The notes under the pieces: generated by a model
Database searches by the model: none
The model's input: only the letters and a program-made list of their open reading frames with translations
Told to the model about the DNA's origin: nothing
Translations under genes and position numbers: made by a program
Source of the DNA: Nakamurella multipartita DSM 44233
Lineage (GTDB): Bacteria > Actinomycetota > Actinomycetes > Mycobacteriales > Nakamurellaceae
Assembly: GCF_000024365.1 (NCBI RefSeq)
Contig: NC_013235.1
Span: 2,790,001 to 2,854,000, forward strand
Direction: 5' to 3'
Length of the DNA stretch: 64,000 bases
In this document: piece after piece, positions 17,778 to 39,436 of the stretch
Layout: the number at the start of each line of letters is the position of its first letter
Numbering within the stretch: the first letter of the stretch is position 1

Positions 17778-17797
17778 GAATACCGTTGGGGGTATTC
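17778..17797. promoter_or_regulatory. CstR-type operator 1 (osmC-sqr operon)
   Basis: GAATACC-N6-GGTATTC, a perfect dyad with the invariant ATACC-N6-GGTAT core shared by six sites in this window. It lies 58 bases upstream of the OsmC start. CsoR/CstR-family repressors bind such pseudo-palindromes with a central G/C-rich stretch. Confidence 0.75.
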
Positions 17798-17855
17798 GTT
17801 GAGGGCGTGGCTGAGGCAGCGCAGGCCCGACGCGGCTGTCGAGAGGACCTCGGTC

Positions 17856-18272
17856 ATGAGGGAAGAGTTGGCTGTCCGCCATCTGGATGGTGACCGCTTC
17901 GCGGTCGATGTGCGGGGCCACACCCTGCTGGTCGACCAGCCGGCGGAGGCCGGTGGGACGGACACGGCTCCGACGCCCACCGAATTGTTCGTCGCGGGAC
18001 TGGCCAGCTGCGTCGCTTTCTATGCGCGCCGCTACCTGGCGCGGCATCAGATCGATGCTGCGGGCCTGACGGTGTCGGCGAGCTACGAGATCGGCGGGAG
18101 GCCGACCCGGGTCCTCCGCATCATCATCGTGGTGACTCCGCCCGCTGATCTGCCGGCCGAACGGCGCGACGCGTTCCTGGCGGTGGCGTCGCACTGCACG
18201 GTGCACAACACGCTGACCGAGCCGGCAGACATCGAGATCGCTCTCGCCGCTACGGCGGCGGCACTGAATTGA
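17856..18272 (+). CDS. OsmC family protein
   Basis: 138 residues from ATG 17856 (MREELAVRHLDGDRFAVDVR). Both OsmC redox cysteines are present: C in FVAGLASCVAFYARRY at about residue 53 and C in FLAVASHCTVHNTL near residue 114. OsmC/Ohr proteins reduce organic peroxides or persulfidated thiols in the cytosol. Its position 74 bases before the SQR-like gene and directly after a CstR-type operator suggests a role in sulfane sulfur handling here. A damaged paralogue is at 38932-39346. Confidence 0.88.
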   Translation: MREELAVRHLDGDRFAVDVRGHTLLVDQPAEAGGTDTAPTPTELFVAGLASCVAFYARRYLARHQIDAAGLTVSASYEIGGRPTRVLRIIIVVTPPADLPAERRDAFLAVASHCTVHNTLTEPADIEIALAATAAALN

Positions 18273-18695
18273 CAGGCGCGCGGCCAATGCAGTCGATGCT
18301 GCCGACGGCCGGAAACGGGCCACCGACGGCCCACTGAGGAGATGTTGTGGTGAAGCGACTGTTGGTATTGGGCGGAGGTACCGCCGGAACGATGATCGTG
18401 AACAAGCTGCGGCGGGCGTTAGCCGCCGCGCAGTGCGAGATCACGATCGTCGACCAGGACGATGCGCACCATTACCAGCCCGGGTACCTGTTCCTGCCGT
18501 TCGGTACCTACACGCCTGATCAGGTCACCCGGTCGCGGCATGCCTTTCTGCCCGACGGGGTCGACTTCGTCGTCGGCGAGGTCGACGTCATCGATGCCGC
18601 CGCTGGAACTGTCTCATTGACCAACGGCCGATCGTTGCCGTACGACTATCTGGTCATCGCCACGGGCGTGGCGCCCCGCCCCGACCAGACACCGG

Positions 18696-20255
18696 TGTTT
18701 TGCTTCTGACTTCGTGTCAGAGATCGGCGTGTTGATCAGCCAACATCCGACGACTCCTTCGACCCGTCTCGGAGGATCCGAAGATGACCCAACCCGATCG
18801 TGGCAAGGACCGTGCCGGCCGGCGCACCAAGCGGTTCCTGACGCCCTCGGAGAAGTACGAGATCTGGCTGCAACTGGTCCGGCAGGAGGTGACGATCGCC
18901 GAGGCCGCCGAGCAGCAGCAGGTCGACCGATCAACGATCATGCGGATACGCACCGTCGCCAAGGAGGGTGCGTTGGCCGCGCTCGCTGCGTCCAAGCCCG
19001 GCGTCGCGGCGGCGCAGCGGGACTACGAGATGGAGGCCGCGAAAGCCGAGATCGCCCGGCTGTCCGAGGCGGTCAAGCAGATGGCGGTCAAGCTCACCCT
19101 GGTCGAGGGAAAAGGCGGCTGGGCCTAGATGGCCGGGTCCCGCGCCGCGTCGAGGCGGCCATCAAGGATCAGCTGCTCACGCTGCTGGACCAGGCGCTGG
19201 ACGCCGGCTGGTCCCTACGCGACGCGTGCGGCGTACTGGAGCTGCCCGAGCGACGCGCGTACCGCTGGTTGGACCGCCGAGCCGAGGGACGGTTGGCCGA
19301 CTCGCCGCCGGGCGGGTCGCCGATGCACGGCCTGCTCGACGATGAGGTGGCCGCGGTCCTGGCCTTGTTCGACGAGTGGGGCGAGACCGACCGCAGTCAT
19401 CGCAAGCTGGCCCACCGGGGCTCCTACCTGGGCCGGGTATGGGTGTCACCATCAACGGTGCGGCGAGTGTTGTTCCTGGCGGACAAGCACTTCCGGCCGC
19501 TGCCCAAGCCCGGCCGCAGCTCCAAGCGGCCGTTCCCGGAATGGGCCGAGTACAAGCCGAACAGTCTGTGGATCTACGACACAACGCACTTCACCAGGGC
19601 CGGGATGGCGGTGCTGATCGTGGAGGACCTGGTCTCCCGCAAGTGGCTGAGCACGGTCGTGTCGGCCGAGGAGACCTCGACGCAGGTGCAGGTCGGCTTC
19701 ACCCGCGCCCTGCACGCCGAGGGGCTGCTACAGCTGGTCGACGCCCGGCACGACGACGGCCGCGTCGACCTGGGCGTCGACGACGAGCACCGGCCGATCC
19801 TGCTGGCGATCTCGGACAACGGCCCGCAGATGACCTCCGGGTCGACCCGCGAGTTCATGGCGTTGTGCGCGATCGCCCAGCACTTCGGCCGGCCCGGCAC
19901 ACCGACCGACCAGGCGTGGATCGAGAGCCTCAACGGGCACCTCAAGGCCGAGTACCCGCACCTCCTGGCCATCCGCGACCCGGCTACGCTGCGTGCCGAA
20001 CTGGACCAGGTGCGGGCGCACTATAACGGGGTCCGGCTGCACCAGGGCATCGGCTACGTCTGTCCCAACGACGAACACCAAGGACGAGGAGCCCAGATCC
20101 GCAAGGCCCGCCAGGCCGGCCTGGAAACCGCCCGCCAACGACGGCTAACCTGGCACCGCGAGCACCGGAACGACCAACACCAACCACCCGCCCCGGAGCC
20201 CGACGATGTTGGCTAATCAAACGCCGAAATGCGTCATTAAGTCAGACACACGTCA
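18696..20255 (+). mobile_element. IS3-type insertion sequence, copy A (1560 bp, TSD CCGG)
   Basis: Bounds follow from comparison with copy B (40375-41934): the shared sequence starts TGTTTTGC and ends CACGTCA. Terminal inverted repeats are imperfect but end in TG...CA, with a shared CTGACTT at bases 11-17. CCGG flanks both sides (18692-18695 and 20256-20259), a 4 bp target duplication. Both copies have the same length, the same reading frames and identical predicted proteins. It interrupts the SQR-like gene. Confidence 0.92.
18784..20216 (+). CDS. IS3-type transposase OrfA/OrfB (fused by -1 frameshift), copy A
   Basis: OrfA (18784-19128, 114 aa) has an HTH (TIAEAAEQQQVDRSTIMRI) followed by a leucine-zipper-like helix. 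OrfB is in the -1 frame and carries the rve domain: D in WIYDTTHFTRAG, D in AISDNGPQMTSG, E in DQAWIESLNGHLKAEYPH, ending YNGVRLHQGIGYVCPNDEH. The overlap contains GGGAAAAGG at 19107-19115, where slipping on A-AAA-G joins the two frames; such programmed -1 frameshifting is standard for IS3 elements. OrfB has no good start of its own. Appears intact and potentially active. Confidence 0.85.
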
Positions 20256-21161
20256 CCGGGAATGCTCGGTGAACAATGGCGAAAGAGCATCTTCGACTTC
20301 TACAGCCTCGACGGTGCGCTGGCGCTCGCGAAGGCATTGGAAGGTTTCGACGGTGGCCGGTTCGTTGTGCACATCACCGATATGCCGATCAAATGCCCGG
20401 TCGCGCCGCTGGAGTTCACCTTCCTCGCCGACGATTACTTCCGCCGCCGGGGCATCCGGGATCGGGTCGAGATGGTGTATGTGACACCGCTGTCCGGCGC
20501 CTTCACCAAACCCATCTCCTCGGCGAGACTGGGCACGATGCTGGACGAGCGAAAGGTCACGGTCGAGACTGACTTCCTGGTCGAACGCATCGACTCGGAC
20601 ACGAAAAAGCTGGTTTCCTATGACGAACGGGAAATCCCGTTCGACCTGCTGGTCACGATTCCGCTGAACATGGGCGCCGATTTCATCGCTCGCTCCGGGC
20701 TGGGTGACGAACTGAACTATGTTCCGGTGAACAAGAAGACGCTGCGATCCACGGTCTATCCGAACATCTTCGCCGTCGGCGATGCCTCCGACATCCCGGC
20801 CTCGAAGGCCGGCTCCGTGGCGCACTTCTCGGTCGAGATCTTCTGCAACAACTTCCTGCAACTGGTTGCCGGTAAGCCGATGACCGGCGCGTTCGACGGG
20901 CACGCGAACTGCTTCATCGAATCGGGCAATGGCAAGGGCCTGCTGATCGACTTCAACTACGACACCGAACCGATGACCGGCAAGTACCCCGTGCCGGTCG
21001 TCGGCCCGTTCAGCCTGCTCGAGGAGACCAGGGCGAACCACCTTGGCAAGCTTGCGTTCCGGTGGATGTACTGGAATGTCCTGCTCCCGGGCCGGCCCAT
21101 TCCGTTGCCGTCACACATGTCGATGGCCGGCAAGAACACCGAACACTAAGGAGCGAACACC

Positions 21162-21476
21162 ATGCCTGTCACCACCCTGGACGGACGCCAGATCCACGTC
21201 AACGACGAGGGATTCCTCACCGACCCCACCGAATGGAACGAGCAGCTGGGCGACACGCTCGCCGCCCAGATCGGAATCACCCTCACCGAACCGCACTGGA
21301 AGGCAATTCACTTCCTGCGCGACGACTACGCGGTCAAGGGCGAAACACCGACCATCCGCCGAGTCTCGACCTCGGGCGGAATACCGGTGAAGGACCTGTT
21401 CAAGCTCTTCCCCGGCAAACCCGCCAAGAAGATGGCCTACATCGCGGGACTGCCCAAGCCACACGGCTGCGTCTGA
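21162..21476 (+). CDS. tusE: TusE/DsrC/DsvC family sulfur relay protein
   Basis: 104 residues, ATG 21162 after AAGGAGCGAACACC. The DsrC fold is clear: GRQIHVNDEGFLTDPTEWNE and HWKAIHFLRDDYAVKGETPT, with the flexible C-terminal arm IAGLPKPHGCV. The penultimate cysteine that accepts persulfide is present, but the second cysteine of true DsrC, 10 residues upstream, is alanine (KKMAYIAG), so this is the one-cysteine TusE-like type. It follows sqr by 12 bases and precedes dsrE by 41, giving the operon osmC-sqr-tusE-dsrE. Confidence 0.88.
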   Translation: MPVTTLDGRQIHVNDEGFLTDPTEWNEQLGDTLAAQIGITLTEPHWKAIHFLRDDYAVKGETPTIRRVSTSGGIPVKDLFKLFPGKPAKKMAYIAGLPKPHGCV

Positions 21477-21517
21477 CGAACAGTGACGTCGACCCCTACA
21501 AGCCCGGAGAGATCCCC

Positions 21518-22030
21518 ATGACTACCACCGAAACCGCACCCGCGATCGTTCCGCAATTCGACACCGAAAACAACGGCCGCAAGCTCGCCATCATCTGCTC
21601 CAAAGGCACCCTGGACATGGCCTACCCGGGACTGGTGCTCGCCAACGCCGCCCTCGGCGAGGGGATCGAAACCCATCTGTTCTTCACCTTCTGGGGCTTC
21701 GAGATGATCAACAAGAAGACGATGAACGATCTGCAGTTCACCCTGCTCGGTAACCCGGCAACGCACATGCCCCAGGGGCTCGGCGGCCTGCCATGGATGA
21801 CCGCGATGGCCACCTCGAAGCTGAAGAAGTCCATCGCCGAGGTCGGCGTCCCGGAGATCCCCGAGTTCCTCGAACAGATCGTCGCCTCGGGCGGTCATCT
21901 CTGGGCCTGCCGGATGTCGGCCGACATGAACCACCTCACCGAGGACGACCTTTACGACCAGGTCGAGGGCATCATCAGCGCCTCCGACTTCATCGAGAAG
22001 ACCGAAGGGGCCCAACTCCTGTTCATCTGA
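21518..22030 (+). CDS. DsrE/DsrF family sulfur carrier
   Basis: 170 residues from ATG 21518 with GGAGAG upstream. The DsrE2-like fold reads KLAIICSKGTLDMAYPGLVL, then EGIETHLFFTFWGFEMINKK, and the catalytic-loop cysteine is in GGHLWACRMSADMNHL (about residue 131). Such proteins relay sulfane sulfur to TusA/TusE partners in the cytosol. It closely parallels the C-terminal domain of the four-domain fusion at 31241-33745 (both have LFFTFWG / MFFTFWG and an AC-x-M-x-M-D motif). Confidence 0.88.
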   Translation: MTTTETAPAIVPQFDTENNGRKLAIICSKGTLDMAYPGLVLANAALGEGIETHLFFTFWGFEMINKKTMNDLQFTLLGNPATHMPQGLGGLPWMTAMATSKLKKSIAEVGVPEIPEFLEQIVASGGHLWACRMSADMNHLTEDDLYDQVEGIISASDFIEKTEGAQLLFI

Positions 22031-24712: not shown

Positions 24713-24883
24713 TCAGCGGCCGAACAGTCGTGACAGGAAAGAGCCGCCGCTGGTGGATCGCGCAGCGGGGGGACAGCTGCAGCGTTGGTGCGCGGGCACG
24801 CCGGCCAGCACCTGGTCGACATGCTGACCACATCCGGTGTAGCTGGCCTTGCCGCAGGAGGGGCAGGTGGCAGGACTGCACAT
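24713..24883 (-). CDS. Small zinc-ribbon protein (56 aa)
   Basis: Reading ATG 24883 to TGA 24713-24715 gives MCSPATCPSCGKASYTGCGQ, HVDQVLAGVPAHQRCSCPP and a C-terminal GGSFLSRLFGR. Two CxxC-type pairs plus CGQHVD suggest a zinc site. I recall very similar short proteins across actinomycetes (TC-x-x-CGK-x-x-W-x-GCGQHVD) with no known function. It is divergent from the two-component system with a CstR-type operator between them (24958-24977), 75 bases upstream of this start. Confidence 0.7.
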   Translation of the reverse strand: MCSPATCPSCGKASYTGCGQHVDQVLAGVPAHQRCSCPPAARSTSGGSFLSRLFGR

Positions 24884-24957: not shown

Positions 24958-24977
24958 TGATACCCAGGGGGGTATCA
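24958..24977. promoter_or_regulatory. CstR-type operator 2 (between zinc-ribbon gene and two-component system)
   Basis: TGATACC-N6-GGTATCA, a perfect 7+6+7 dyad. It lies 69 bases upstream of the response regulator and 75 bases upstream of the divergent zinc-ribbon gene, so it could control either or both. Confidence 0.75.
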
Positions 24978-25045: not shown

Positions 25046-25735
25046 ATGCGAAAGGTTCTGGTCGTCGACGACGAGCCGCACATCCGGACCGTGTTACGCG
25101 GGTATCTGGAGGCCGACGGGTTCGAGGTGGTCGACGCCGCGGACGGGGAGACCGCAGTGGATCTGGTCCGGCGTGATCCGCCGGACTTGGTGCTGCTGGA
25201 CGTGATGCTGCCGGGGATCGACGGTCTGGAGGTTCTGCGTCGGTTGCGGGCCGTGAGCGATGCGTACGTCATTCTGGTCACCGCGCGGGCCGAGGAGGTC
25301 GACAAGCTCGTCGGGCTCGCGGTGGGGGCGGATGACTACGTGACCAAGCCGTTCAGCCCGCGGGAGGTCACTGCCCGGGTGAAGGCGGTGCTCCGGCGGG
25401 ATCGCGGCGGGCGAACCGGAGAGGATGTGGTGCTGCGGTTCCGGGGCCTATCGATCGATCTGGCGGGTCGGGAGGTTCACGCCGACGGAGCGCCGGTGGC
25501 GTTGTCGAGTCTGGAGTTCGACCTGCTGGCCGCACTGGCCGGGGCGCCCGGACGGGTCTTCTCCCGCGCCCAACTGCTCGAGCGGGTGTGGGGGTACGAC
25601 TTCTATGGCGACGAGCGGGTCGTCGATGTGCACATCCGGAGCCTGCGGTCGCGGTTGGGTGACCCGGCCGCCGACCCGCGTCTGATCGCCACCGTTCGGG
25701 GTGTGGGTTACAAGTTCGTGGGCAGCCCTCGATGA
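25046..25735 (+). CDS. OmpR/PhoB-family response regulator
   Basis: 229 residues from ATG 25046, preceded by GAAGGAGGG. Receiver domain at residues 1-115 with acidic pocket DDE at 8-10, phospho-acceptor D52 in LVLLDVMLPG, T in LVTARAEE and K in YVTKPFSPRE. The winged-helix DNA-binding domain follows (LSSLEFDLLAALAGAPGRVF, VVDVHIRSLRSRLGD, TVRGVGYKFV). It overlaps the kinase by ATGA, so they form one unit. The upstream CstR-type operator suggests that the pair responds to sulfane sulfur stress. Confidence 0.92.
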   Translation: MRKVLVVDDEPHIRTVLRGYLEADGFEVVDAADGETAVDLVRRDPPDLVLLDVMLPGIDGLEVLRRLRAVSDAYVILVTARAEEVDKLVGLAVGADDYVTKPFSPREVTARVKAVLRRDRGGRTGEDVVLRFRGLSIDLAGREVHADGAPVALSSLEFDLLAALAGAPGRVFSRAQLLERVWGYDFYGDERVVDVHIRSLRSRLGDPAADPRLIATVRGVGYKFVGSPR

Positions 25736-26868
25736 CGATTCGGATGCCCCTGCGGTTGTTCTTGTCCTACGCCCTCGTGGCTTCCGTCGGAGCCGTCGTG
25801 GCGTACCTGACGGTGTGGCTGCTTGCGCCGGCCCTGTTCGATCGCCAGGTCGGCATGATGAACAACGGCGGCATGGGCTCGGGGTCGGGGGGCGGAGCGC
25901 AGGCCGGTTTGCGTGACGCGTTCCGGTTCGCCCTCACCACGGCCCTGGCCGTCGGGCTCACCGCCAGCGTGGTGGCCGCCGTCGTCGTGGCCTGGTTCGT
26001 CACGCGCCGGCTGATGCGCCCGCTGCACGCGGTGCGGGCGGCCACCCGGCGGATCGCGGCGGGTGACTACCGAGTCAGCGTGCCGGTGCCGAGGGAGCCG
26101 GAACTGGCCGCGCTGGCCACCGATGTGAACACCCTGGGCTCCGCGCTGGCCGACACCGAGGCCCGCCGCACTCGGCTGCTCGGCGATGTCGCGCACGAAC
26201 TGCGCACGCCGTTGACCGCCCTGGACGGATATGTCGAGGGCCTGATCGATGGAGTGTTCGCGCCGACTCCGGACATCCTTGGGTCGCTCAGTGACGAGCT
26301 GCGCCGGCTGCACCGGTTGGCCGAGGACCTTTCCAGTCTGTCCCGGGCCCAGGAGCAGGGCCTGGATCTGCATCCGGTCGACGCGGACCTCGCCGACCTT
26401 GCTCGTCGTGCGGCCGCCCGGCTGGCCCCGCAGTTCCGGGACGCGCAGGTCACGTTGACCGTCCAGGCCGACCAGATGGTGCCGGTCACCGCCGATCCCG
26501 ACCGGATCATCCAGGTGCTGACGAACCTGCTCGGCAACGCGCTGCTCGCCACCGCGGCGGGCGGGGCCGTGACGATTGCCGCCCGCGCCGGCGCCCGGAG
26601 CGGCGAGGTCTCGGTGACCGACACCGGGGTGGGTCTGGCCGAGGCGGACCTCGAACGGGTCTTCGAGCGCTTCTACCGGGCGCCGGGCCAGCCTCGCCGG
26701 TCGGCCGGGTCGGGCATCGGGCTGACCATCGCCCGGGACATCGCCCGCGGACACGGGGGAAACGTGACCGCCTCCTCACCCGGCCCCGGTCAGGGCGCCC
26801 GCTTCACGGTGACCATTCCGCTGCGTGCGCATCGGCGCTCCGAAATCGCCGAGCACCTTCAGAGCTGA
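25732..26868 (+). CDS. Membrane sensor histidine kinase
   Basis: 378 residues. One transmembrane segment at about 8-35, a short 30-residue extracytoplasmic loop rich in Gly and Met (GMMNNGGMGSGSGGG), a second segment at about 67-90, HAMP at 91-143, HisKA with H155 in DVAHELRTPLTALDG, and the ATPase domain with N box TNLLGNALLATA, G1 SVTDTGVGLAEADLERVFER and G2 SAGSGIGLTIARDIA. The loop is too short for a folded ligand domain, so it probably senses envelope state or uses its Met residues. Partner of the preceding regulator. Confidence 0.9.
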   Translation: MTIRMPLRLFLSYALVASVGAVVAYLTVWLLAPALFDRQVGMMNNGGMGSGSGGGAQAGLRDAFRFALTTALAVGLTASVVAAVVVAWFVTRRLMRPLHAVRAATRRIAAGDYRVSVPVPREPELAALATDVNTLGSALADTEARRTRLLGDVAHELRTPLTALDGYVEGLIDGVFAPTPDILGSLSDELRRLHRLAEDLSSLSRAQEQGLDLHPVDADLADLARRAAARLAPQFRDAQVTLTVQADQMVPVTADPDRIIQVLTNLLGNALLATAAGGAVTIAARAGARSGEVSVTDTGVGLAEADLERVFERFYRAPGQPRRSAGSGIGLTIARDIARGHGGNVTASSPGPGQGARFTVTIPLRAHRRSEIAEHLQS

Positions 26869-29884: not shown

Positions 29885-29958
29885 CCACTGCTTGAGACCG
29901 CTCGGGAAGCGCCGCCGGCCGCGATGATCTGGCTGATTGAGTAGGCCGTCGCAGGCAG

Positions 29959-30029
29959 AGGCGGGTACCGGATTCGAACCGGTGTTCACGGCTTTGCAGG
30001 CCGCTGCCTCGCCTCTCGGCCAACCCGCC
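29959..30029 (-). tRNA. tRNA-Cys (anticodon GCA)
   Basis: The minus strand folds as a cloverleaf: acceptor GGCGGGT pairs with ACCCGCC, the anticodon loop is CTGCAAA (GCA), the T arm is CCGGTTCGAATCCGG, and the discriminator base is U, as required for Cys. CCA is not encoded. It is a normal-looking gene located in the middle of the sulfur island. Confidence 0.93.
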
Positions 30030-30281: not shown

Positions 30282-30950
30282 TCACCTATCGGTCACGCCC
30301 ATCCCGTGGCCCGTTCCCATGCCCGACCCGCGAACGTCGGTGCCCGTCCGGTTCACGACACCCATGGCATCTCCAGTTCCGGAGCAGCGGGCACCGCTGG
30401 CGTTGCTGGTGAACGCGGCCAGGTGGTGCCGCGAGGCGGTGAGCAGATGAGTGAACACCTGCTGCACGTCCGTGTCCGTGTTCCGCGCGAGAAGCTTCTC
30501 CAGGTCAGCGATATCGGCCTGCTCGAGCGCGACGCCAACGGCGAATGCGGCGTCCTGGGATTCCAGGCCCTGCGCCTTCCACTGGTCGTACAGTGCCTGC
30601 ACCTCCGCGTTGGCGTAGGTTCCCGCCGGTAGTCCGGCGGCCGGATCGGCCACGCCATAGGTGGTCAACAGAGCCCCGACCTCGTCGAAGTGCTGTTGTT
30701 CGCTGGCCGCGATCCGATCGAAGACCGGCGCGTCATACGTCTGCCCGAACAGCGTGTACAGATCCCTGGCCATCCGCTCCTCGTCCCGGCTGTAGGCGAG
30801 GTCGGCGTCCCGGCTCTCGTCCGACGCCACTGCCACGGTGGCCGTGGCCACGCTCGGTGCCGATGGCCCCGCGACCGCCGTCCCCACCAATCCGAAACCC
30901 ACCAACAACGCCATGCCGCCGGCCACCGCAGCCTTCCCGAAGCTCCTCAT
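30282..30950 (-). CDS. Exported DUF2202 (ferritin-like) protein
   Basis: About 222 residues from ATG 30950. An N-terminal signal sequence is clear (MRSFGKAAVAGGMALLVGFG, cleavage near AVAGP). The DUF2202 four-helix core follows: LAYSRDEERMARDLYTLFGQ, FDRIAASEQQHFDEVGALLT, EVQALYDQWKAQGLESQDAA and LEQADIADLEKLL, with E/H pairs that resemble diiron ligands (EERM, EQQHFDE, EQADI). A single cysteine and a Gly/Met/His-rich tail end the protein. Secreted or membrane-anchored; function unknown, possibly metal or redox related. Confidence 0.85.
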   Translation of the reverse strand: MRSFGKAAVAGGMALLVGFGLVGTAVAGPSAPSVATATVAVASDESRDADLAYSRDEERMARDLYTLFGQTYDAPVFDRIAASEQQHFDEVGALLTTYGVADPAAGLPAGTYANAEVQALYDQWKAQGLESQDAAFAVGVALEQADIADLEKLLARNTDTDVQQVFTHLLTASRHHLAAFTSNASGARCSGTGDAMGVVNRTGTDVRGSGMGTGHGMGVTDR

Positions 30951-31179
30951 CGTCCGCCACCTTTCGTTCGATCCGCCTCTGCGCGGACATCCCCAGTCAA
31001 CGTCGGGGCGGTGAAGCCCCGACCGCGGCAACCATGAAGCTTGGGTGAAAGCTGCGGCCTACCGTGCCGCCCCGCCTCCGTCCTCCGGGCACTGGCCCGG
31101 CCTGGCCCGCCCCGTGGGCCGAAGGTCCCGAAATTCGCCGCGACCGGGGCGGAACCGGGTCCCGTCCCGTAGGGTGAGC

Positions 31180-31199
31180 TGATACCCCCTAAGGTATAT
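31180..31199. promoter_or_regulatory. CstR-type operator 3 (four-domain sulfur fusion gene)
   Basis: TGATACC-N6-GGTATAT, with the invariant ATACC-N6-GGTAT core, centred about 50 bases upstream of the fusion gene start at 31241. The spacer CCCTAA gives the run ACCCCCTAAGGT, very like operators reported for CstR/CsoR proteins. Confidence 0.75.
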
Positions 31200-31240: not shown

Positions 31241-33745
31241 ATGAAGATCGTTGTTGTCGGCGGCGTGGCGGCGGGCATGTCATGCGCGGCGCGGGCCCGG
31301 CGGCTGGATGAGTCCGCCGAGATCGTGGTGTTCGAGCGGGCGAATCATGTGTCGTTCGCCAACTGCGGTTTGCCGTATCACATCGGCGAGGTGATCAAGG
31401 ACCGCAGCCGGCTGCTGCTGCAGACCCCGCAGAGCTTGCACGAGTCGTTGGCGATCGACGTGCGCATCGCCACCGAGGTTCTCGCCATCCGCCCCGACCG
31501 CAAGTCCGTGACCGTCCGGGACCTCGACAGCGGGCGCGAGTACGAGGAGCCGTACGAACAGCTCGCGTTGTGCCCCGGGGCGTCGCCGATCACGCCGCCA
31601 CTGCCCGGGGTCGACCATCCCGACATCCACGTGTTGCGCCGGATCGGCGACATGGACGTGATCAAGGCCGCGGTCGACGGGCGGAGCGCGTCGGGCCGGC
31701 CACCCATCACGCACGGGGTGGTGATCGGCGCGGGGTACATCGGCCTGGAAATGGCGGAGAACCTGCACGAGCGCGGCGTGCAGGTCGTGGTCGTCGAGAT
31801 GGCCGACCAGATCATGCCGCCGCTGGACCGTGAACTGACCACCACCATGGAGAGCTACATCCGGGCCCACGGCGTCGAGCTGCGGCTGGGCACCCAGGCG
31901 GCCGCATTCAGCCGGTCTCCCGGCGGCTGGCTACGGGTCGAACTGACGAACGGCGAATTCGTCCAGACCGACCTGGTCCTGCTCGCCGCCGGGGTGCGGC
32001 CCAGCACCGAACTCGCGGTCGCGGCCGGCATCGACCTCGGACCGCGGGGCGGCATCAAGGTCGACGCGCACATGCGGACCAGTGTCCCCGGCATCTACGC
32101 CGCCGGCGATGCGATCGAGGTCGAACATCTGGTGCTGCCCGGGACCTGGCTGATCCCGCTGGCCGGGCCGGCGAACCGGCAGGGCCGGGTGGCCGCGGAG
32201 AACATGTGCGGCCGGGACACGGTGTTCGACCCGGTGCAGGGCACCTCGATCGTGAAGGTGTTCGACATGGTCGCCGGCGGCACCGGTGCGAACCAGCGGC
32301 AGCTGGATGCGGCCGGAGTGCCGTACGAGCGGGTGCAGATCCATCCGTCCGGGCACGCCGGCTATTACCCGGGCACCGCGAAGATGCAGCTCAAGGTGCT
32401 GTTCGAACCGGTGACCGGCAAGCTGCTGGGCGCCGGCATCGTGGGCTTCGACGGGGTCGACAAGCGGCTCGACGTGCTGGCCACGGCGCTGCGTGGCGGG
32501 ATGACGGTGCACGACCTGGAGGGTCTCGAGCTGGCCTACGCGCCGCCGTTCGGGTCGGCCAAGGACCCGATCAACATGGCCGGGTTCGTGGCCGCCAACC
32601 TGCTGAAGAAGGACCTGCGGTTGTGGTACCCCAGTGAATACCCGGGGGCCACCGATGGTGCTCGGATCATCGACGTTCGGGGTCCTCAGGAGTACGCGAT
32701 CTGGCATCTGCCCGGCGCGGAGAACGTCCCGCTGCCGACCCTGCGGGAGGCCCAGCAGGACTGGGACCGGAGCCGGCCGATCCGGCTCTATTGCGCGGTC
32801 GGGTTCCGCAGCTACCTGGCCTACCGGGCACTGGTGCAACGCGGCTTCACCGATGTGCGGACCCTGTCCGGCGGGATGACGACCTTCCGCTCCTACCATG
32901 ATGTCCCGTCCGCGGAGAGCGTCGACACCATCGAGCCGGTGGTCAACTACGGCGAGGACCGCACCGGCATCAACGCCGTGCGGGTGACCGCCGCCGGGCC
33001 GGTCGCGGCCACCGGAGTATTGGTGGACCTGGACTGCACCGGCCTGGCCTGCCCCGGACCGATCATGGCGTTGCAGGCCAGGATGGCCGAGCTCGCCCCG
33101 GGCGACGAGGTGCTGGCCCACGTCTCCGACCCCGGGTTCCGGCTCGACGCCCCGGCGTGGGCGGCCAAGAACGGTCACTCGATGCTGGAGCTGGTGCCCG
33201 AGGGACCCGGCTACGCCGCCCGGTTCCGCAAGGGCGGTATCGGGATCGTCCCCGGCGGCCCGGCCGCCCGGCTGAAGGACAAGAAGTCGTTCGTGGTGTT
33301 CTCCGGCGAGTTCGACCGGGTGCTGGCCTCGTTCATCCTGGCCAACGCCGCCGCGTCGATGGGCGACGAGGTGTCGATGTTCTTCACCTTCTGGGGTCTC
33401 AACGCGCTGCGTCGGCTGGACCCGCCGACCCGCGAGAAGAATGCGCTGGACCGGGCGTTCTCGGCCGTCCTGCCGTCGGGGCCGGACAGCCTGCCGCTGT
33501 CCACGATGAACATGTTCGGGGGTGGACCGGCGCTGATCAAGAAGATCATGAAGGATCACCACGTGCCGAGCCTGCCCGAGCTGATCGCTTCCGCGCAGCA
33601 GACCGGGGTGCGGTTGATCGCCTGCACGATGACCATGGATCTGTTGGGCATCGCCCATGAGGACCTGATCGACGGCGTCGAACTGGGCGGGGCGGCGATG
33701 TTCTTCGGTGAGGCGAACGAGTCCAACGGGGCGTTCTTCATCTGA
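31241..33745 (+). CDS. CoA-disulfide-reductase / rhodanese / TusA / DsrE four-domain fusion
   Basis: 834 residues from ATG 31241 behind GAGGAG. Residues 1-445: pyridine-nucleotide disulfide oxidoreductase with GGVAAGMSCAARARR and the CoADR cysteine in SFANCGLPYHIGEVI (about C44). About 460-550: rhodanese with C in LYCAVGFRSY. About 585-655: TusA with CTGLACPGPIMAL. About 675-834: DsrE with MFFTFWGLNAL and the cysteine in LIACTMTMDLLGI. All four domains keep their reactive cysteine, so one polypeptide could reduce (per)sulfides and pass sulfane sulfur between domains. Cytosolic. Preceded by a CstR-type operator; mshC follows closely. Confidence 0.93.
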   Translation: MKIVVVGGVAAGMSCAARARRLDESAEIVVFERANHVSFANCGLPYHIGEVIKDRSRLLLQTPQSLHESLAIDVRIATEVLAIRPDRKSVTVRDLDSGREYEEPYEQLALCPGASPITPPLPGVDHPDIHVLRRIGDMDVIKAAVDGRSASGRPPITHGVVIGAGYIGLEMAENLHERGVQVVVVEMADQIMPPLDRELTTTMESYIRAHGVELRLGTQAAAFSRSPGGWLRVELTNGEFVQTDLVLLAAGVRPSTELAVAAGIDLGPRGGIKVDAHMRTSVPGIYAAGDAIEVEHLVLPGTWLIPLAGPANRQGRVAAENMCGRDTVFDPVQGTSIVKVFDMVAGGTGANQRQLDAAGVPYERVQIHPSGHAGYYPGTAKMQLKVLFEPVTGKLLGAGIVGFDGVDKRLDVLATALRGGMTVHDLEGLELAYAPPFGSAKDPINMAGFVAANLLKKDLRLWYPSEYPGATDGARIIDVRGPQEYAIWHLPGAENVPLPTLREAQQDWDRSRPIRLYCAVGFRSYLAYRALVQRGFTDVRTLSGGMTTFRSYHDVPSAESVDTIEPVVNYGEDRTGINAVRVTAAGPVAATGVLVDLDCTGLACPGPIMALQARMAELAPGDEVLAHVSDPGFRLDAPAWAAKNGHSMLELVPEGPGYAARFRKGGIGIVPGGPAARLKDKKSFVVFSGEFDRVLASFILANAAASMGDEVSMFFTFWGLNALRRLDPPTREKNALDRAFSAVLPSGPDSLPLSTMNMFGGGPALIKKIMKDHHVPSLPELIASAQQTGVRLIACTMTMDLLGIAHEDLIDGVELGGAAMFFGEANESNGAFFI

Positions 33746-33780
33746 GCGACCCGGGACGCGATGGTAGGGAGATGCGTCTG

Positions 33781-34959
33781 ATGACGGTTGGCACTGAGTA
33801 CTCGTCGGGAGTAATCGGCCGGGCCGGCCGGGTGGAGCGCCCGGAACCGCGCCTGCGCAGCGCCGAGTTCCGGCTCGCCGGCGCGGCGTTGCCGGTGGTC
33901 AGCCCGGCCAGGATGTACGTGTGCGGGATCACCCCGTACGACGTGACGCACCTGGGGCACGCGGCGACGTTCGTCTGGGCCGATGCCGCGCAGGCGGTGC
34001 TGAGGTCGATCGGCGTGCACACGGTGTCGTGCCGCAACGTCACCGACGTGGACGACGTGCTGACCGCGGCCGCGGACGCGCATGGCCGGCACTACGACGA
34101 GCACGCGGTCTACCAGGAGTTCCTGTTCGAGCAGGACATGGCTGCCCTGCGGGTGGCGCGGCCGACGCATACGCCGCGGGCCCGGCACTTCGTCCCGCAG
34201 GTGCGGCAGCTGGCTGCCGCGCTGCTCGCCACCGGCCATGCCTATCAGCGGGACGGGTCGGTGTACTTCCGGGGCCGCGGCGCCGTGGCTGCCGCCGGGC
34301 TGTCCGGCGACCTGGCCGTGGAGTTGTCCGCGGAGTTCGGCGACGCCCCCGAGGATCCGGCGCGCGAGGACCCGTTCGATGTGCCGGTGTGGCGACCATC
34401 CACGGACCGGGACCCGGCGTGGCCCAGCCCGTGGGGGTGGGGCCGGCCGGGGTGGCACGCCGAGTGTGCGGCCATGTCGATGGCGACGCTCGGGGCCGGT
34501 GTGGACGTGCTGATCGGTGGTCAGGATCTGGTGTTCCCGCACCATGCCTATCAGGCCGCCCTGGTACAGGCGGCGTCAGGAGTGGCGCCGTTCGCCCGCC
34601 GCGCCATGCACGTCGGCGCGGTGCATTACCAGGGCCGGAAGATGGCGAAGTCGACCGGCAACCTCGTGCTGATCAGTGACTTGTTGCGTAGTTGCCCGCC
34701 GGCCGCGGTCCGGATGCTGTTGCTGAATCGGCCATGGGGGTCCGGGTGGGAGTACCACGAGGCGGATCTCGAGGCGGCGTCCGCCGACCTGGAGGCTCTG
34801 TACGTCGCGGCCGGGCGACCGAACCGGTCCGCGGGGGCCGCCGAGGCGGTCACCGCGGCCTTGTTGAATGACCTGGATGTCCCCGCCGCCGTGGCGGTCG
34901 CCCGGCAGGAGGGGGGCGACGCCGCTCGTGGACTGGTCAGCGTGCTGGCGCTGTCTTGA
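33781..34959 (+). CDS. mshC: MshC-like cysteine:GlcN-Ins ligase (mycothiol biosynthesis)
   Basis: About 392 residues from ATG 33781, which has GGGAG 9 bases upstream (ATG 33772 is too close). The class-I tRNA-synthetase fold shows the MshC form of the HIGH region, MYVCGITPYDVTHLGHAATF (CysS would have CGPTVYD), zinc ligands including C in WHAECAAMS, and KMAKSTGN as the KMSKS loop. MshC joins cysteine to glucosaminyl-inositol with ATP. It starts 35 bases after the fusion gene and is probably co-transcribed, linking mycothiol supply to persulfide handling. It may be a second copy. Confidence 0.85.
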   Translation: MTVGTEYSSGVIGRAGRVERPEPRLRSAEFRLAGAALPVVSPARMYVCGITPYDVTHLGHAATFVWADAAQAVLRSIGVHTVSCRNVTDVDDVLTAAADAHGRHYDEHAVYQEFLFEQDMAALRVARPTHTPRARHFVPQVRQLAAALLATGHAYQRDGSVYFRGRGAVAAAGLSGDLAVELSAEFGDAPEDPAREDPFDVPVWRPSTDRDPAWPSPWGWGRPGWHAECAAMSMATLGAGVDVLIGGQDLVFPHHAYQAALVQAASGVAPFARRAMHVGAVHYQGRKMAKSTGNLVLISDLLRSCPPAAVRMLLLNRPWGSGWEYHEADLEAASADLEALYVAAGRPNRSAGAAEAVTAALLNDLDVPAAVAVARQEGGDAARGLVSVLALS

Positions 34960-34992: not shown

Positions 34993-35259
34993 TCAGGCCA
35001 GCGACAGGAACAGCTTCTCCATGGTTTTGGTGTCCAGCGTGTCCTGTCCGTCGGACTCGACGAGGCATTGTTTGAGGCCGGCGGCGATGACGGCGAATCC
35101 GGCGCGGTCGACGGCCCGGCTGACTGCGGCGAGTTGGGTGACGATGTCCTGGCAGTCGCGCCCTTCCTCGATCATCCGTAGCACACCGCCGATCTGGCCC
35201 TGGGCGCGGCGCAGCCGGTTGATCACGGCGGTCATCGATTCCGGGGCGATCTCGACCAT
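34993..35259 (-). CDS. cstR: CsoR/RcnR-family repressor of the persulfide-sensing CstR type
   Basis: 88 residues, all-helical DUF156 protein: SMTAVINRLRRAQGQIGGVL, EEGRDCQDIVTQLAAVSRAV, GFAVIAAGLKQCLVES. Cysteines fall at 36 and 65, matching Cu-CsoR positions, but the copper-ligand histidine at 61 is glycine (AAGLKQC). CstR proteins keep two cysteines, form di- or trisulfide links with sulfane sulfur and release DNA. It is the last gene of trx-DUF302-cstR and an operator (36136-36155) lies in front of that operon, so it probably regulates itself. Confidence 0.88.
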   Translation of the reverse strand: MVEIAPESMTAVINRLRRAQGQIGGVLRMIEEGRDCQDIVTQLAAVSRAVDRAGFAVIAAGLKQCLVESDGQDTLDTKTMEKLFLSLA

Positions 35260-35305: not shown

Positions 35306-35740
35306 TCAGGGCGTCGGAGGGGACTGGGTGAGCGAGCCCAGTGCGCTGGTGAGTCGGGCCCGCGCTTCGGTGGCCACCGCCTGCAGGTCGGGGTTGTCGG
35401 TGACGCTCACCATGATCGCCGGATCGATGGTCTCCACCCGGGTCCGGTCGCCGGCCACGCTGCGGACCACGACGTTGCAGGGCAGCAGGAGTCCGATGGA
35501 CGGTTCGGCCAGCAGCGCGGCATGAGCCAGTGGTGGTCGGCATGCACCAAGGATCACCTGGGGTGCGATGTCGGCACCGATTTTCGCCTTCAGGGTGGCC
35601 TGCATGTCGATCTCGGTGAGCACGCCGAAACCCTCTGCGGCCAGCGCGTCCCGGGTGGCGCTGAGCACCTGGGCGAACGGCCGGTCGACGGTGACCGCGA
35701 TCGCGTAGCCGGGCTGGGCCCCGGCGTCGGGGCCGGTCAT
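35306..35740 (-). CDS. DUF302 domain protein
   Basis: 144 residues. The DUF302 core reads AIAVTVDRPFAQVLSATRDA, EGFGVLTEIDMQATLKAKI, VILGACRPPLAHAALLAEPS, IGLLLPCNVVVRS. The two conserved cysteines in GACRPP and LPCNV are present. DUF302 proteins are common beside CsoR/CstR genes and thioredoxins; their biochemical role is unknown, and the cysteines suggest thiol or metal chemistry. Its start overlaps the thioredoxin stop (ATGA). Confidence 0.85.
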   Translation of the reverse strand: MTGPDAGAQPGYAIAVTVDRPFAQVLSATRDALAAEGFGVLTEIDMQATLKAKIGADIAPQVILGACRPPLAHAALLAEPSIGLLLPCNVVVRSVAGDRTRVETIDPAIMVSVTDNPDLQAVATEARARLTSALGSLTQSPPTP

Positions 35741-36108
35741 GCCGACTTCGCCTTGGCTGCGGCGACCTGCGCCCGGACCTGGTCCATGTCCAGGTCACGC
35801 ACGGCCGCGATGAGGTGGTCGAGGGACTTCGCCGGCAGGGCGCCGGGCTGGGAGAAGACCAGGATGCCGTCCCTGAAGGCCATGAGGGTGGGAATGGACC
35901 GGATACCGGCCGCGGCGGCCAGGTTCCGTTCGGTTTCGGTGTCGACCTTGCCGAACACGATGTCCGGGTGGGCCGTCGCGGCCTTCTCGAAGACGGGTGC
36001 GAACATCCGGCACGGCCCGCACCAGGAGGCCCAGAAGTCGACCAGGACGATGCCGCCGCCGCTCACCACACCTTCGAACGTGCGGTCGGTCAGCGTTGTC
36101 GTTGCCAT
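35737..36108 (-). CDS. trxA: Thioredoxin
   Basis: 123 residues with the standard fold, VLVDFWASWCGPCRMFAPVF (WCGPC) and cis-Pro in IRSIPTLMAFRDG. Thioredoxin reduces protein persulfides as well as disulfides, fitting its position as the first gene of the trx-DUF302-cstR operon. The tail after residue 105 is alanine/lysine-rich. A CstR-type operator ends 28 bases before its start. Confidence 0.93.
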   Translation of the reverse strand: MATTTLTDRTFEGVVSGGGIVLVDFWASWCGPCRMFAPVFEKAATAHPDIVFGKVDTETERNLAAAAGIRSIPTLMAFRDGILVFSQPGALPAKSLDHLIAAVRDLDMDQVRAQVAAAKAKSA

Positions 36109-36135: not shown

Positions 36136-36155
36136 GTATACCCACAGGGGTATCA
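36136..36155. promoter_or_regulatory. CstR-type operator 4 (trx-DUF302-cstR operon)
   Basis: GTATACC-N6-GGTATCA with the invariant core, located 28 bases from the thioredoxin start on the minus strand, overlapping the expected promoter. Confidence 0.75.
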
Positions 36156-36258
36156 ACGGGCGTGTCATCCAGATTGTTCCCGGCGCCGAGCACGTGCCGG
36201 GTGGGGTATCTGTGGCGGGCCCGGGATACCCCCGGGCGGCGTAGGGTTGGTCGTAGCA

Positions 36259-36278
36259 ACATACCCCGCCGGGTATCA
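36259..36278. promoter_or_regulatory. CstR-type operator 5 (rhodanese-PDO-TauE operon)
   Basis: ACATACC-N6-GGTATCA with the invariant core, ending 17 bases before the GTG of the rhodanese gene. Together with operator 4 it gives each arm of this divergent promoter region its own site, 103 bases apart. Confidence 0.75.
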
Positions 36279-36295: not shown

Positions 36296-36637
36296 GTGCT
36301 CGAGATGCGTGAGGTGTCGATGACAGAGGTCGAGAAGGCCCGCACAGCAGGGGCCGTGGTGATCGACGTGGGTGACGTCGAGGAGTACGACCGTGGTCAT
36401 ATCCCCGGTGCCGCGTCCCTTCCGTTGGGGGATCTGTCGCGGGACCTGAGCGTGGCCAGTTGCCAGATCCGTCGCGACGCGCCCGTCTTTGTGGTGTGCG
36501 CGGCCGGCAACCGCAGTCTGATCGCCGCCGGGATGCTCATGCACGCCGGCTATGACGCCTTCTCGGTGCGCGGCGGCACTCGTGCCTGGGTCAAGGCGGG
36601 CAACGCCGTGGTGGGTGGTGACCATGTCCGTTACTGA
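36296..36637 (+). CDS. Single-domain rhodanese
   Basis: 113 residues from GTG 36296, chosen for the GAGAGGAAC 7 bases upstream; ATG 36305 is the alternative. Motifs: AVVIDVGDVEEYDRGHIPGA, the active loop VVCAAGNRSLIAAGML with the catalytic cysteine, and GYDAFSVRGGTRAWVKAG. Transfers sulfane sulfur between thiols in the cytosol. It overlaps the dioxygenase gene by 14 bases, so they are translated together. Confidence 0.9.
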   Translation: MLEMREVSMTEVEKARTAGAVVIDVGDVEEYDRGHIPGAASLPLGDLSRDLSVASCQIRRDAPVFVVCAAGNRSLIAAGMLMHAGYDAFSVRGGTRAWVKAGNAVVGGDHVRY

Positions 36638-38039
36638 TGTCCCTCGCGTCGGGATCACCGATCAGGACGGCGGCACCGGGGTGACTGTCGTGCCGATCGA
36701 GACCCCCACGTTGGGGGACCGCAGCTACCTGGTCCATGACGGGCGGGTCGCCGTGGTGATCGATCCGCAGCGTGACATCGACCGGGTGTTGGACGCCGCC
36801 GCCGCTGCCGCCGGCGTGCGGATCACCCACATCTTCGAGACCCATATCCACAACGACTATGTCACCGGCGGGTTGGCCCTGGCCCGGGCCACCGGCGCGG
36901 CCTATCACGTGAACGCCGCCGATCCCGTGACCTACGAACGGGTGGCAGTGCGCGACGGCGACGTCATCGGGATCGGGTCGGCCTGGCGGCTGCGGGTGCT
37001 GGCCACCCCGGGCCACACCTACACCCACCTGTCCTACGTGCTCGAGGACCACGGCACCGCCACCGCGGTCTTTTCCGGCGGGTCGCTGCTGTTCGGGTCG
37101 ACCGGCCGGCCGGACCTGCTCGGCCCGGACCACACTCACGACCTGGTGCATCACCAGTACGCCTCGGCCCAACGGCTGGCCACGGAGCTGCCCGAGCAGG
37201 CGCAGGTGCTGCCGACCCACGGGTTCGGCAGCTTCTGCTCGTCCACCCAGACCGAGGCCACCGCCTCCACGATCGGGGCCGAGAAGGCCAGCAACCCGGT
37301 GCTCACCCTGGACGAAGATCGTTACGTCAGTGAGCTCCTCGCCGGTTTGGATGCCTTCCCGGCCTATTACGCGAAGATGGGTCCGGCGAACACGGCCGGT
37401 CCGGCCGCGCCGGATCTGTCCCCGCCGGAGCTTGCCGACGCCCGCCAGTTGCGCCGGCGGTTGGAGCGGGGCGAGTGGCTGGTCGATCTGCGGACCCGCA
37501 CCGCGTTCGCCGCCGGCCACGCCCCCGGCACCCTGAACTTCGGGCTCGACGGATCCTTCGCGACCTACCTGGGGTGGCTCATCCCGTGGGGGACGCCGGT
37601 CACGCTGCTCGGCGAGACCGCCGATCAGGTCGCCCAGGCGCAACGGGAGATGGTCCGGATCGGCATCGACCGGCCCGCGGCCGCGGCCACCGGCGGACCA
37701 CGGCGGTGGACCGACGGGCCGCTCGGCACCGTCGAGCGGGCGACGTTCGCCGACCTGGCTCAGGTCCGGCATCACCGCCGCGTCACCGTCCTGGACGTGC
37801 GGCGCAATCTGGAGCGGTCCGAATCGCACATCGACGGCGCCCTGCACATCCCTCTGCACGATTTGCTACGTCGGGTCGACGAGATCCCCGCCGGTGAGCT
37901 GTGGGTGCACTGCGCAGCCGGCTACCGGGCCTCGATCGCCGCCTCGATCCTGCTGGCCCGAGGACACCAGGTGGTCGCCGTCGACGACGACTACACCAAC
38001 GCGGCGGGCGCCGGCCTGCCCGTCATTGTCGGTACGTGA
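36624..38039 (+). CDS. Persulfide-dioxygenase-like MBL hydrolase fused to two rhodanese domains (CstB-like)
   Basis: 471 residues from ATG 36624. Residues 20-250: metallo-beta-lactamase fold with HIFETHIHNDYVTGGLALA and TPGHTYTHLSYV. About 300-365: first rhodanese domain without a cysteine in the loop (LVDLRTRTAFAAGHAPGTLN). About 375-470: second rhodanese with C in LWVHCAAGYRASIAAS. This order matches CstB of the cst operons, which oxidise persulfide to sulfite/thiosulfate. Where ETHE1 has the iron-ligand aspartate (TGDALL), this protein reads FSGGSLLFG, so the metal site may differ. Confidence 0.88.
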   Translation: MSVTDVPRVGITDQDGGTGVTVVPIETPTLGDRSYLVHDGRVAVVIDPQRDIDRVLDAAAAAAGVRITHIFETHIHNDYVTGGLALARATGAAYHVNAADPVTYERVAVRDGDVIGIGSAWRLRVLATPGHTYTHLSYVLEDHGTATAVFSGGSLLFGSTGRPDLLGPDHTHDLVHHQYASAQRLATELPEQAQVLPTHGFGSFCSSTQTEATASTIGAEKASNPVLTLDEDRYVSELLAGLDAFPAYYAKMGPANTAGPAAPDLSPPELADARQLRRRLERGEWLVDLRTRTAFAAGHAPGTLNFGLDGSFATYLGWLIPWGTPVTLLGETADQVAQAQREMVRIGIDRPAAAATGGPRRWTDGPLGTVERATFADLAQVRHHRRVTVLDVRRNLERSESHIDGALHIPLHDLLRRVDEIPAGELWVHCAAGYRASIAASILLARGHQVVAVDDDYTNAAGAGLPVIVGT

Positions 38040-38051: not shown

Positions 38052-38879
38052 ATGGTGGTGCTCGTCGCGATCCTGGCCGGGGCGCTGATCGGCCTGAGCC
38101 TGGGCGCGCTCGGCGGCGGCGGATCGATTCTCACGGTCCCGGCCCTGGTGTACCTGGTCGGGATGGACACCCGCGCGGCGACGACGGGGTCGCTGGTCAT
38201 CGTCGGGGTCACCGCGGTGGTCGGGATGCTCGCCCACCGCCGGGACGGGCACGTCCGCATGCTGCAGGGCGTGGTCTTCGGGCTGGTGGGTGCCGCGGGG
38301 GCGGTCGCCGGCACCCGACTGTCGCTGGCCGTGGCCCCGGAAGTGCTGCTTGCCGGGTTCTCCGTGCTGATGCTGGCCGTGGCGGGCATCATGCTCACCC
38401 GCCGTCGGGTGCCGGCCGGCAGCGGCGGCCCGAGTATGGCCGAGCGCATCCCGCTCGACGTGCCGATCATCACCTTCAAGCCCCGCTTCATCTGCGCCTG
38501 CCCCCGCGCCGCGAAGGTGGTCGTCGCCGCGCTGGCGGTCGGACTGATGACCGGGTTCTTCGGCGTGGGCGGCGGTTTCCTGGTGGTGCCGGCGCTCGTG
38601 CTGGCCCTGGACTTCCCGATGCCGGTGGCCGTGGGCACGTCGCTGCTGGTCATCGCGATGAACAGCGCCACGTCCCTGGTGGCCCGGGCGGGCTCCGGCC
38701 TCGAGATCGACTGGACCGTCATCGCCCTGTTCACCGGGGCCGCCGTCATCGGCAGCCTGCTCGGGGCCCGGATCGTGACGAAAGTCCGCCCGCAGACCCT
38801 GCAGATCGCGTTCGCCGGGCTGATCATCGCCGTCGGCCTCTACACCGCCGCCCGCAGCTTCCCCGCGCTGCTGGGCTGA
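38052..38879 (+). CDS. TauE/SafE family sulfite exporter
   Basis: 275 residues, 12 bases after the dioxygenase gene. Two homologous halves with repeated motifs: IGLSLGALGGGGSILTVPAL at about 11-30 and LMTGFFGVGGGFLVVPALVL at about 168-187; eight or so membrane helices. Family members export sulfite, sulfonates or related anions. As the last gene after rhodanese and persulfide dioxygenase, it would remove the sulfite produced, as TauE does in cst operons. Confidence 0.9.
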   Translation: MVVLVAILAGALIGLSLGALGGGGSILTVPALVYLVGMDTRAATTGSLVIVGVTAVVGMLAHRRDGHVRMLQGVVFGLVGAAGAVAGTRLSLAVAPEVLLAGFSVLMLAVAGIMLTRRRVPAGSGGPSMAERIPLDVPIITFKPRFICACPRAAKVVVAALAVGLMTGFFGVGGGFLVVPALVLALDFPMPVAVGTSLLVIAMNSATSLVARAGSGLEIDWTVIALFTGAAVIGSLLGARIVTKVRPQTLQIAFAGLIIAVGLYTAARSFPALLG

Positions 38880-38931
38880 CGCCTCCGGACCCGCGGCCCT
38901 GAGCGGGGTCGGCTGGGGTCGAGCCGGGTCG

Positions 38932-39346
38932 TCAGTCTCCGACGGCTACGACGGTGTCCGGGGTCAGGGTGACGTCAATGGTCGGCGGTTGCACGAGGGT
39001 GTTGCACGGTGCAGTGCGAGGCCACCGCCAGAAACGCATCCCGGCGTTCGGCGGGCAGCGCCGCCGGGGGCGGCGTCACGACGATGGCGATCCGGCTGAC
39101 GCGGGCGGGTCGGCCGCCCTGGTGGACCAGCCGGTCGGGGCGGGTGGTACCGACACCGACCGAGCTGTTCTTCGCCGGCCCGGCCAGTTGCGTCGCGTTC
39201 TACGCTCGCCGGTACGCCTCCCGGCACCAGTCCCCGGCCGACGGCCTGCAGGTCGCGGTGACGTACGAGCTCGGCACGGTGTGCTCCCTGATACCGACGG
39301 TGAACCGGTCACCGCCCACGTGGCGGACCCTGACCTCGTCAGTCAT
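38932..39346 (-). pseudogene. Second OsmC-family gene with an internally inverted segment
   Basis: Minus strand from ATG 39346: MTDEVRVRHVGGDRFTVGIR then EHTV; and at the other end GRPARVSRIAIVVTPPPAAL, AERRDAFLAVASHCTV and, after a two-base loss, NTLVQPPTIDVTLTPDTVVA to TGA 38932-38934. The middle of the protein (LVDQPVGAGGTDT, PTELFFAGPASCVAFYARRY, ADGLQVAVTYELG) is encoded on the plus strand at 39119-39274. Flipping that segment restores the expected OsmC order, as judged against the intact copy at 17856. Two small indels also exist. Operator 6 precedes it. Confidence 0.75.
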
Positions 39347-39416
39347 CGCATTCGTCCCTTTTAGATCGGCGTCGGTCGACGCGGCCCTCCCCAACGCGAT
39401 GGACCGCGCGGACCAC

Positions 39417-39436
39417 CGATACCCGGCACGGTATCG
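39417..39436. promoter_or_regulatory. CstR-type operator 6 (damaged osmC paralogue)
   Basis: CGATACC-N6-GGTATCG, a perfect 7+6+7 dyad with the invariant core, 70 bases upstream of the minus-strand OsmC remnant, the same relation as operator 1 to the intact osmC. Confidence 0.72.

Follow-up and report, generated by a model that had tools for sequence, protein, structure and literature searches.

Which repressor reads the dyads of core ATACC-N6-GGTAT that recur through a sulfane-sulfur island of Nakamurella multipartita DSM 44233, and which genes stand behind them? The window considered here is the whole stretch of 64,000 nucleotides (contig NC_013235.1, positions 2,790,001 to 2,854,000), in which an earlier note had described six such dyads and attributed them to a CstR-like repressor. 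All six are present, at 17780, 24960, 31182, 36138, 36261, and 39419, and the pattern gave no match across 100 dinucleotide-preserving shuffles of the window. The whole genome (6,060,298 bases) contains nine exact sites and none of the reversed control pattern, compared with 0.37 expected per genome under a first-order Markov model of the window and 1.13 from base composition only. Six of the nine lie in the window and three in a paralogous island at 384-390 kb (384358, 389762, and 389887). Searching with the 12-base core ATACCC-N4-GGGTAT and allowing at most one mismatch returned the same nine sites and none additional (control, 1). The chance rate of once per megabase given in the earlier note presupposes equal base frequencies and has to be lowered to about 0.2 per Mb for the composition found here. 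The motif is not frequent throughout the genome, the observation that would have counted against the reading of the earlier note: the N6 sites are confined to the two sulfane-sulfur islands. A switch of a known type is thus seen here with clear limits, its nine operators all falling in two islands and none elsewhere in the 6 Mb, so that regulon membership can be read from the sequence. Five window sites face an intact first gene; there, the end of the dyad is 19 to 73 bp away from the closest start codon, the start codons being our choice.

Each of the two islands has its own repressor gene. The window repressor, P0003 (34993-35259), scored 83.8 bits against PF02583 (cut-off 22.8). In the alignment it keeps Cys36 and Cys65 and has Gly61 at the position of the His in the genome's own CsoR; the His being absent, it misses the Cys-His-Cys ligand set of copper CsoR. 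The assignment of the copper-ligand residue in CsoR-family proteins is one that we presume to hold here. The window and second-island copies are 93% identical, and both lack the His. The family match, the two cysteines, and the missing copper-ligand His bear out the claim that the island encodes a CstR-like repressor. We observed directly the sites and their restriction to two islands, the repressor residues, and the gene content. They make it highly probable that the six dyads serve as operators for a CstR-type repressor that would be released by persulfide and would control sulfane-sulfur genes.

The alternative for these dyads is copper control, in which they would be CsoR operators and the sulfur genes would be under the copper repressor or under both repressors. 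CsoR and CstR sites are alike, and ATACCn6GGTAT, the sequence bound by ScCsoR of Streptomyces coelicolor, is similar to copper CsoR and RicR sites (PMC7533328). The genome does encode a third CsoR-family protein with Cys-His-Cys, at 1900416, and the kinase under operator 2 (25732-26868) has a short methionine-rich outer loop (MMNNGGMGSGSGGG), which is perhaps metal-related. However, the whole-genome scan found no exact N6 site at the csoR gene. Its promoter carries the dyad ATACC-N7-GGTAT at 1900308 (L016 1393-1409), with a spacer of 7 instead of the 6 of the sulfur operators, and both of the islands that hold the nine N6 sites encode a repressor without the His. In addition, Thermus, with TTHA1953, provides a case of two CsoR-type repressors in one cell that use separate sites (PMC10318464). 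Copper control is weakened by the N7 csoR dyad and the His-less island repressors, and we regard it as quite unlikely. Only one further N7 site occurs in the genome, and no copper gene was recognised by eye among the open reading frames around it. A rule by which N6 and N7 spacers separate sulfur from copper repressors is a lead from one promoter; the 6-base and 7-base spacings in one genome may give a simple lead on how sister repressors stay apart.

The features of the window that bear on the probable CstR-type regulon are as follows.

17780-17795: operator 1, ATACCGTTGGGGGTAT, before osmC
17856-18272, plus strand: osmC, OsmC-like protein (PF02566)
18347-18709, plus strand: first part of sqr, broken by an insertion sequence (part of Pyr_redox_2; 77% DNA identity to the intact sqr of the second island, L010)
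18695-20255, plus strand: insertion sequence copy within sqr (integrase core domain; identical copy at 40374-41934)
20256-21149, plus strand: last part of sqr (match to the L010 sqr)
21162-21476, plus strand: tusE/dsrC (PF04358, E 1.3e-32; TIGR03342 above cut-off)
21518-22030, plus strand: dsrE-type gene (PF13686 in the open reading frame 21062-22030; 91% identical in L010)
24713-24883, minus strand: 56-residue cysteine-rich (zinc-ribbon-like) peptide
24960-24975: operator 2, ATACCCAGGGGGGTAT, flanked by the peptide gene and that of the response regulator
25049-25735, plus strand: OmpR-type response regulator (PF00072, PF00486)
25732-26868, plus strand: sensor histidine kinase (PF00512, PF02518, PF00672)
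31182-31197: operator 3, ATACCCCCTAAGGTAT, before the four-domain fusion
31241-33745, plus strand: four-domain fusion of a CoA-(per)sulfide-reductase type with rhodanese, TusA, and DsrE2 (open reading frame opens at 31229)
33772-34959, plus strand: CysL, a CysRS/MshC relative of a third clade (PF01406; tree)
34993-35259, minus strand: CstR-type repressor P0003 (PF02583; residues)
35306-35740, minus strand: DUF302 protein (PF03625)
35737-36108, minus strand: thioredoxin (PF00085; TIGR01068 above cut-off)
36138-36153: operator 4, ATACCCACAGGGGTAT, before trx-DUF302-cstR
36261-36276: operator 5, ATACCCCGCCGGGTAT, before the rhodanese gene
36296-36637, plus strand: rhodanese (PF00581)
36624-38039, plus strand: metallo-beta-lactamase-fold protein with rhodanese stretches (PF00753; PF00581 in two stretches)
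38052-38879, plus strand: TauE/SafE sulfite exporter (PF01925)
38955-39346, minus strand: osmC remnant with a rearranged middle part
39419-39434: operator 6, ATACCCGGCACGGTAT, before the osmC remnant

The protein at 36624-38039 is probably a persulfide dioxygenase (PDO), judging from its domains. No Pfam family matched the zinc-ribbon-like peptide, whose counterpart in the second island stands after cstR2. Across operator 3, a gene for a DUF2202 protein with a Met/His/Gly-rich tail (30282-31031, minus strand) diverges from the fusion; its likely start is about 230 bp from the site, and it is a possible target of operator 3. Half-operator-like stretches, GGGTGGGGTATC and GGATACCCCCGGG, lie at 36194-36240 between operators 4 and 5 and may be weak or decayed sites. 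Near the island, a TniQ-domain gene (9189-10031, plus strand) hints at a transposon of Tn7 type or a comparable one. Two proteins, P0016 and P0011, have matches labelled Nakamurella at 76 and 78% identity, in keeping with a Nakamurella-like actinomycete.

The gene list of the earlier note needs three changes: sqr is broken, the presumed osmC paralogue is a remnant, and CysL had been omitted. The second island had likewise escaped that note. The sqr gene (18347-21149) is split by a 1561-bp insertion sequence at 18695-20255 that is 100% identical to the copy at 40374-41934, and the second osmC of the window has a rearranged middle and carries stops in each of the three reading frames on its own strand. 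The other copy of the insertion sequence sits between sulfate-permease fragments. The stretch L010 (377001-397000), which holds the second island, carries operator-sqr-tusE-dsrE, operator-trx-DUF302-cstR2, operator-PDO-TauE, and an osmC. Since the window sqr is broken by the insertion sequence, the second island would have to supply this type of SQR function. The parts common to both islands are 77 to 87% identical at the DNA level; among the genes compared, the fusion, CysL, and the two-component pair occur only in the window island.

The motif was also followed through 61 genomes, namely this one and 60 relatives (about 316.8 Mb), where it occurs 101 times compared with 11 for the control; at least one site is present in 29 of the 61. 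Within the genus (17 genomes) the counts are 33 and 2. Twenty stretches around sites of the relatives, which we chose ourselves, were searched with 17 query genes (tblastn, E 1e-5): cstR was found in ten of them, and PDO and DUF302 in six each. Several observations weigh against the operator reading. In six of the 20 stretches (L139, L141, L144, L145, L147, and L154) no query gene was found, so that the bare motif is no proof of the regulon; their sites may be chance sites or belong to other regulons. Site 6 of the window faces the osmC remnant, and the second-island osmC lacks an exact site.

The regulon is of a known kind and the CstR-type reading is supported; the interpretation offered in the earlier note is, overall, partly supported. 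We infer binding, persulfide sensing, de-repression, and the functions of PDO and SQR from ScCsoR and other CstR proteins. In the proposed mechanism, the repressor (34993-35259) and its second-island copy would occupy the dyads upstream of the genes as long as sulfane sulfur is absent. A per- or polysulfide would bridge the two cysteines of the repressor, which would then leave the DNA. The genes thus released would provide carriers and movers of sulfane sulfur, that is, OsmC, SQR, TusE, DsrE, rhodanese, thioredoxin, and the reductase-rhodanese-TusA-DsrE2 fusion. PDO would oxidise the sulfane sulfur and TauE would export the sulfite, and the repressor would limit itself through the trx-DUF302-cstR unit. 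In this genome the regulon would also include the OmpR-type two-component pair and CysL.

What, then, is CysL? The gene follows the fusion by 26 bp and encodes 395 residues with a CysRS catalytic domain (PF01406). The protein scored 264 bits against TIGR03447 (the MshC equivalog; cut-off 485.1) and 241 bits against TIGR00435 (the CysRS equivalog; cut-off 340), below the cut-off in both cases. The genome also has a separate MshC and a separate CysRS, both 38% identical to CysL. Sequences were assigned to the CysL, MshC, or CysRS type by the best BLAST score against these three proteins, and a quick tree was built from 75 rows (35 of 53 CysL, 28 of 55 MshC-type, and 12 of 12 CysRS-type sequences). 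The 35 CysL rows form one clade (SH-aLRT 100) on a long stem, outside the MshC clade. KMAKS is present in 50 of 52 CysL sequences. The zinc loop in the 52 is mostly HHAYE (23) or HHAYQ (14), compared with HHECE in 47 of the 55 MshC-type rows and HHENE in ten of the 12 CysRS-type rows. Twenty aligned CysL members all share the zinc ligands C51, C232, and H257 and the two KM-KS lysines. At the fourth ligand position (E238 of E. coli) the window protein has Gln, and 34 of the 52 CysL sequences have Glu. The sequence features indicate that CysL is a third type of enzyme, neither CysRS nor MshC, that is predicted to activate cysteine.

A tRNA-Cys gene (29958-30029, minus strand) lies within the island, 3.7 kb upstream of CysL, which raises the idea that CysL charges this extra tRNA as part of a spare cysteine-charging set under sulfur stress. 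The island tRNA-Cys and the other tRNA-Cys (3824510) both have the anticodon GCA and are equal at 64 of 72 positions, differing at eight. However, the match of CysL to E. coli CysRS (461 aa) stops near residue 365 and CysL ends at 395, so that the C-terminal tRNA-binding part is missing from it. Because this part is absent and the genome has a CysRS, besides a second tRNA-Cys, charging by CysL is not favoured, and we consider it most improbable. CysL might instead be a CARS-like cysteine persulfide synthase that makes or loads CysSSH, given that CARS enzymes produce CysSSH from cysteine (PMC7563103). Of the four pyridoxal phosphate lysines of CARS (K73, K76, K266, and K269 in E. coli; PMC7563103), CysL retains two, the KM-KS loop lysines K290 and K293. 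K73 and K76, in contrast, are replaced with V96 and A99 in the window protein, no row of the alignment has Lys at these positions, and a persulfide maker within a persulfide-clearing regulon is hard to motivate. We judge this alternative unlikely.

The role that we put forward, tentatively and as something short of probable, is that CysL represents a third actinobacterial branch of the CysRS/MshC family, a dedicated cysteine ligase that can come under the sulfane-sulfur switch and that produces a thiol capped with cysteine, either mycothiol or some new relative, which accepts sulfane sulfur for PDO. The enzyme would activate cysteine with ATP at the zinc site and then join it to an amine acceptor other than tRNA, and its role would probably be the supply of the thiol that carries sulfane sulfur to PDO. 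The switch would in that case increase the carrier thiol and the oxidation machinery at the same time. Genuine membership of CysL would add one more cysteine-activating enzyme to the persulfide defence of some actinobacteria, and it would make directly testable which thiol carries sulfane sulfur to PDO in organisms that rely on mycothiol.

CysL could equally have drifted into the island as a bystander with no role in sulfane-sulfur metabolism, and its distribution bears on this possibility. At E 1e-90 or better, only two of the 17 genomes in the genus carry CysL. Across the class the count is 36 of 394 sampled genomes, in 24 of 138 genera, and it may be low because only four candidates per genome were scored. 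The exact operator is absent at 53 of 56 other CysL loci, 51 of 55 loci have no PDO match, and no correlation between CysL and the operator is seen at the genome level (14/36 versus 151/394 with a stricter motif; Fisher p 1.0). These results count against regulon membership. The 15 named loci L019-L033 show no exact or one-mismatch operator, and the stretches of L026, L199, and L200 (PDO neighbours) and of L201, L203, and L205 (relatives of L204) show no N6 dyad within two mismatches. On the other side, in the second genus member, G008 (L135), the genes are arranged differently and CysL has an operator to itself: the site lies about 220 bp before CysL, and CysL converges with a sqr-tusE-dsrE unit that is also led by an operator. 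Two other families again show CysL at the end of runs that begin with an operator and contain exporter-type genes. In L195 (f32), two operators lie between PDO and a same-strand run ending in TauE-CysL, and in L204 (f49) CysL directly follows a SLAC1-family channel gene, partly read as N, whose likely start carries an operator. The exact operator thus occurs at three of the 56 CysL loci besides the window, compared with 0.25 expected (P 0.0023, a value that ignores relatedness and the choice of stretch). Furthermore, PDO lies within 1.7 kb of CysL at four of 55 loci (L026, L195, L199, and L200); the neighbourhood is seen in Nocardioides, in f31 (two genomes from a single genus), and in f32. 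The bystander explanation is possible, although we would not call it probable. In our reading CysL was repeatedly recruited into the regulon with no obligatory partnership, a link that recurs but is not general.

In Pseudonocardia, a mycothione reductase above the NCBIfam cut-off (L025 7153-8535) is encoded about 1.5 kb from CysL and points to mycothiol. The flavin reductases near CysL in L025, L028, and L029 of this genus cluster together; the L025 one was tested by NCBIfam. A conserved two-component partner of CysL was dropped as an idea. Regulator and kinase genes stand close to CysL in several families, as seen over the 55 loci and over 51 of these (L023, L028, L032, and L033 left out). 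Identity to the window pair is 44-48% for the regulators and 31-38% for the kinases, and orthology is for this reason unsupported.

Comparison with known systems shows how much of this regulon has precedents. The motif, a CstR-controlled two-component system, and DUF302 in such clusters are not new as such. The earlier note had presented the two-component pair, DUF302, and the zinc-ribbon peptide as unusual members; all three are present, and the first two have precedents (PMC9918477, PMC6305408). In the YrkD-NreBC cluster of Bacillus licheniformis, a CstR-like repressor governs sqr, pdo, and a two-component system, and CstR acts through di- and trisulfide bridges that link cysteines of neighbouring subunits (PMC9918477). 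NreBC senses sulfide, whereas the pair in the window is of the OmpR type with a HAMP kinase. The SUL module of Arthrobacter plasmids, a cluster of CsoR, dioxygenase, two rhodaneses, TauE, a major facilitator superfamily protein, and DUF302, shares with the window a CsoR-family regulator, a sulfur dioxygenase, rhodaneses, TauE, DUF302, and a small protein (PMC6305408). The module is plasmid-borne, however, and the text considered lists neither the fusion nor CysL for it and contains no operator analysis.

Residues 5-555 of the fusion resemble CoA-persulfide reductase and CoA-disulfide reductase-rhodanese proteins (8a56, 3nta, and 3icr), which combine a flavin reductase with rhodanese; the fusion differs from them in having TusA and DsrE2 domains in addition. 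CysL resembles MshC (8hfm and 3c8z) in its catalytic core, its length, its zinc cysteines and histidine, and the lack of the C-terminal tRNA-binding part, and differs from it in its separate clade, its score below the cut-off, and its HHAY[EQ]-type and KMAKS motifs. In the open-access literature we found no paper on CstR together with DUF302 and none combining CoA disulfide reductase, rhodanese, TusA, and DsrE. Among the open-access matches listed, no title or start of an abstract places a CysRS relative in a CstR regulon, and phrases for MshC or CysRS paralogues are likewise absent. All of these negatives are weak evidence of absence.

The closest counterpart is the regulon of ScCsoR (SCO0620), which has the same ATACCn6GGTAT motif, two needed cysteines, and corresponding targets (PMC7533328). 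There, four genes that serve to sense and remove sulfane sulfur are under ScCsoR, namely those of PDO, a rhodanese, a sulfite transporter, and ScCsoR itself, compared with nine sites in two islands here. Beyond these targets, the regulon described here would extend to osmC, sqr-tusE-dsrE, trx, DUF302, the two-component pair, the fusion, and CysL.

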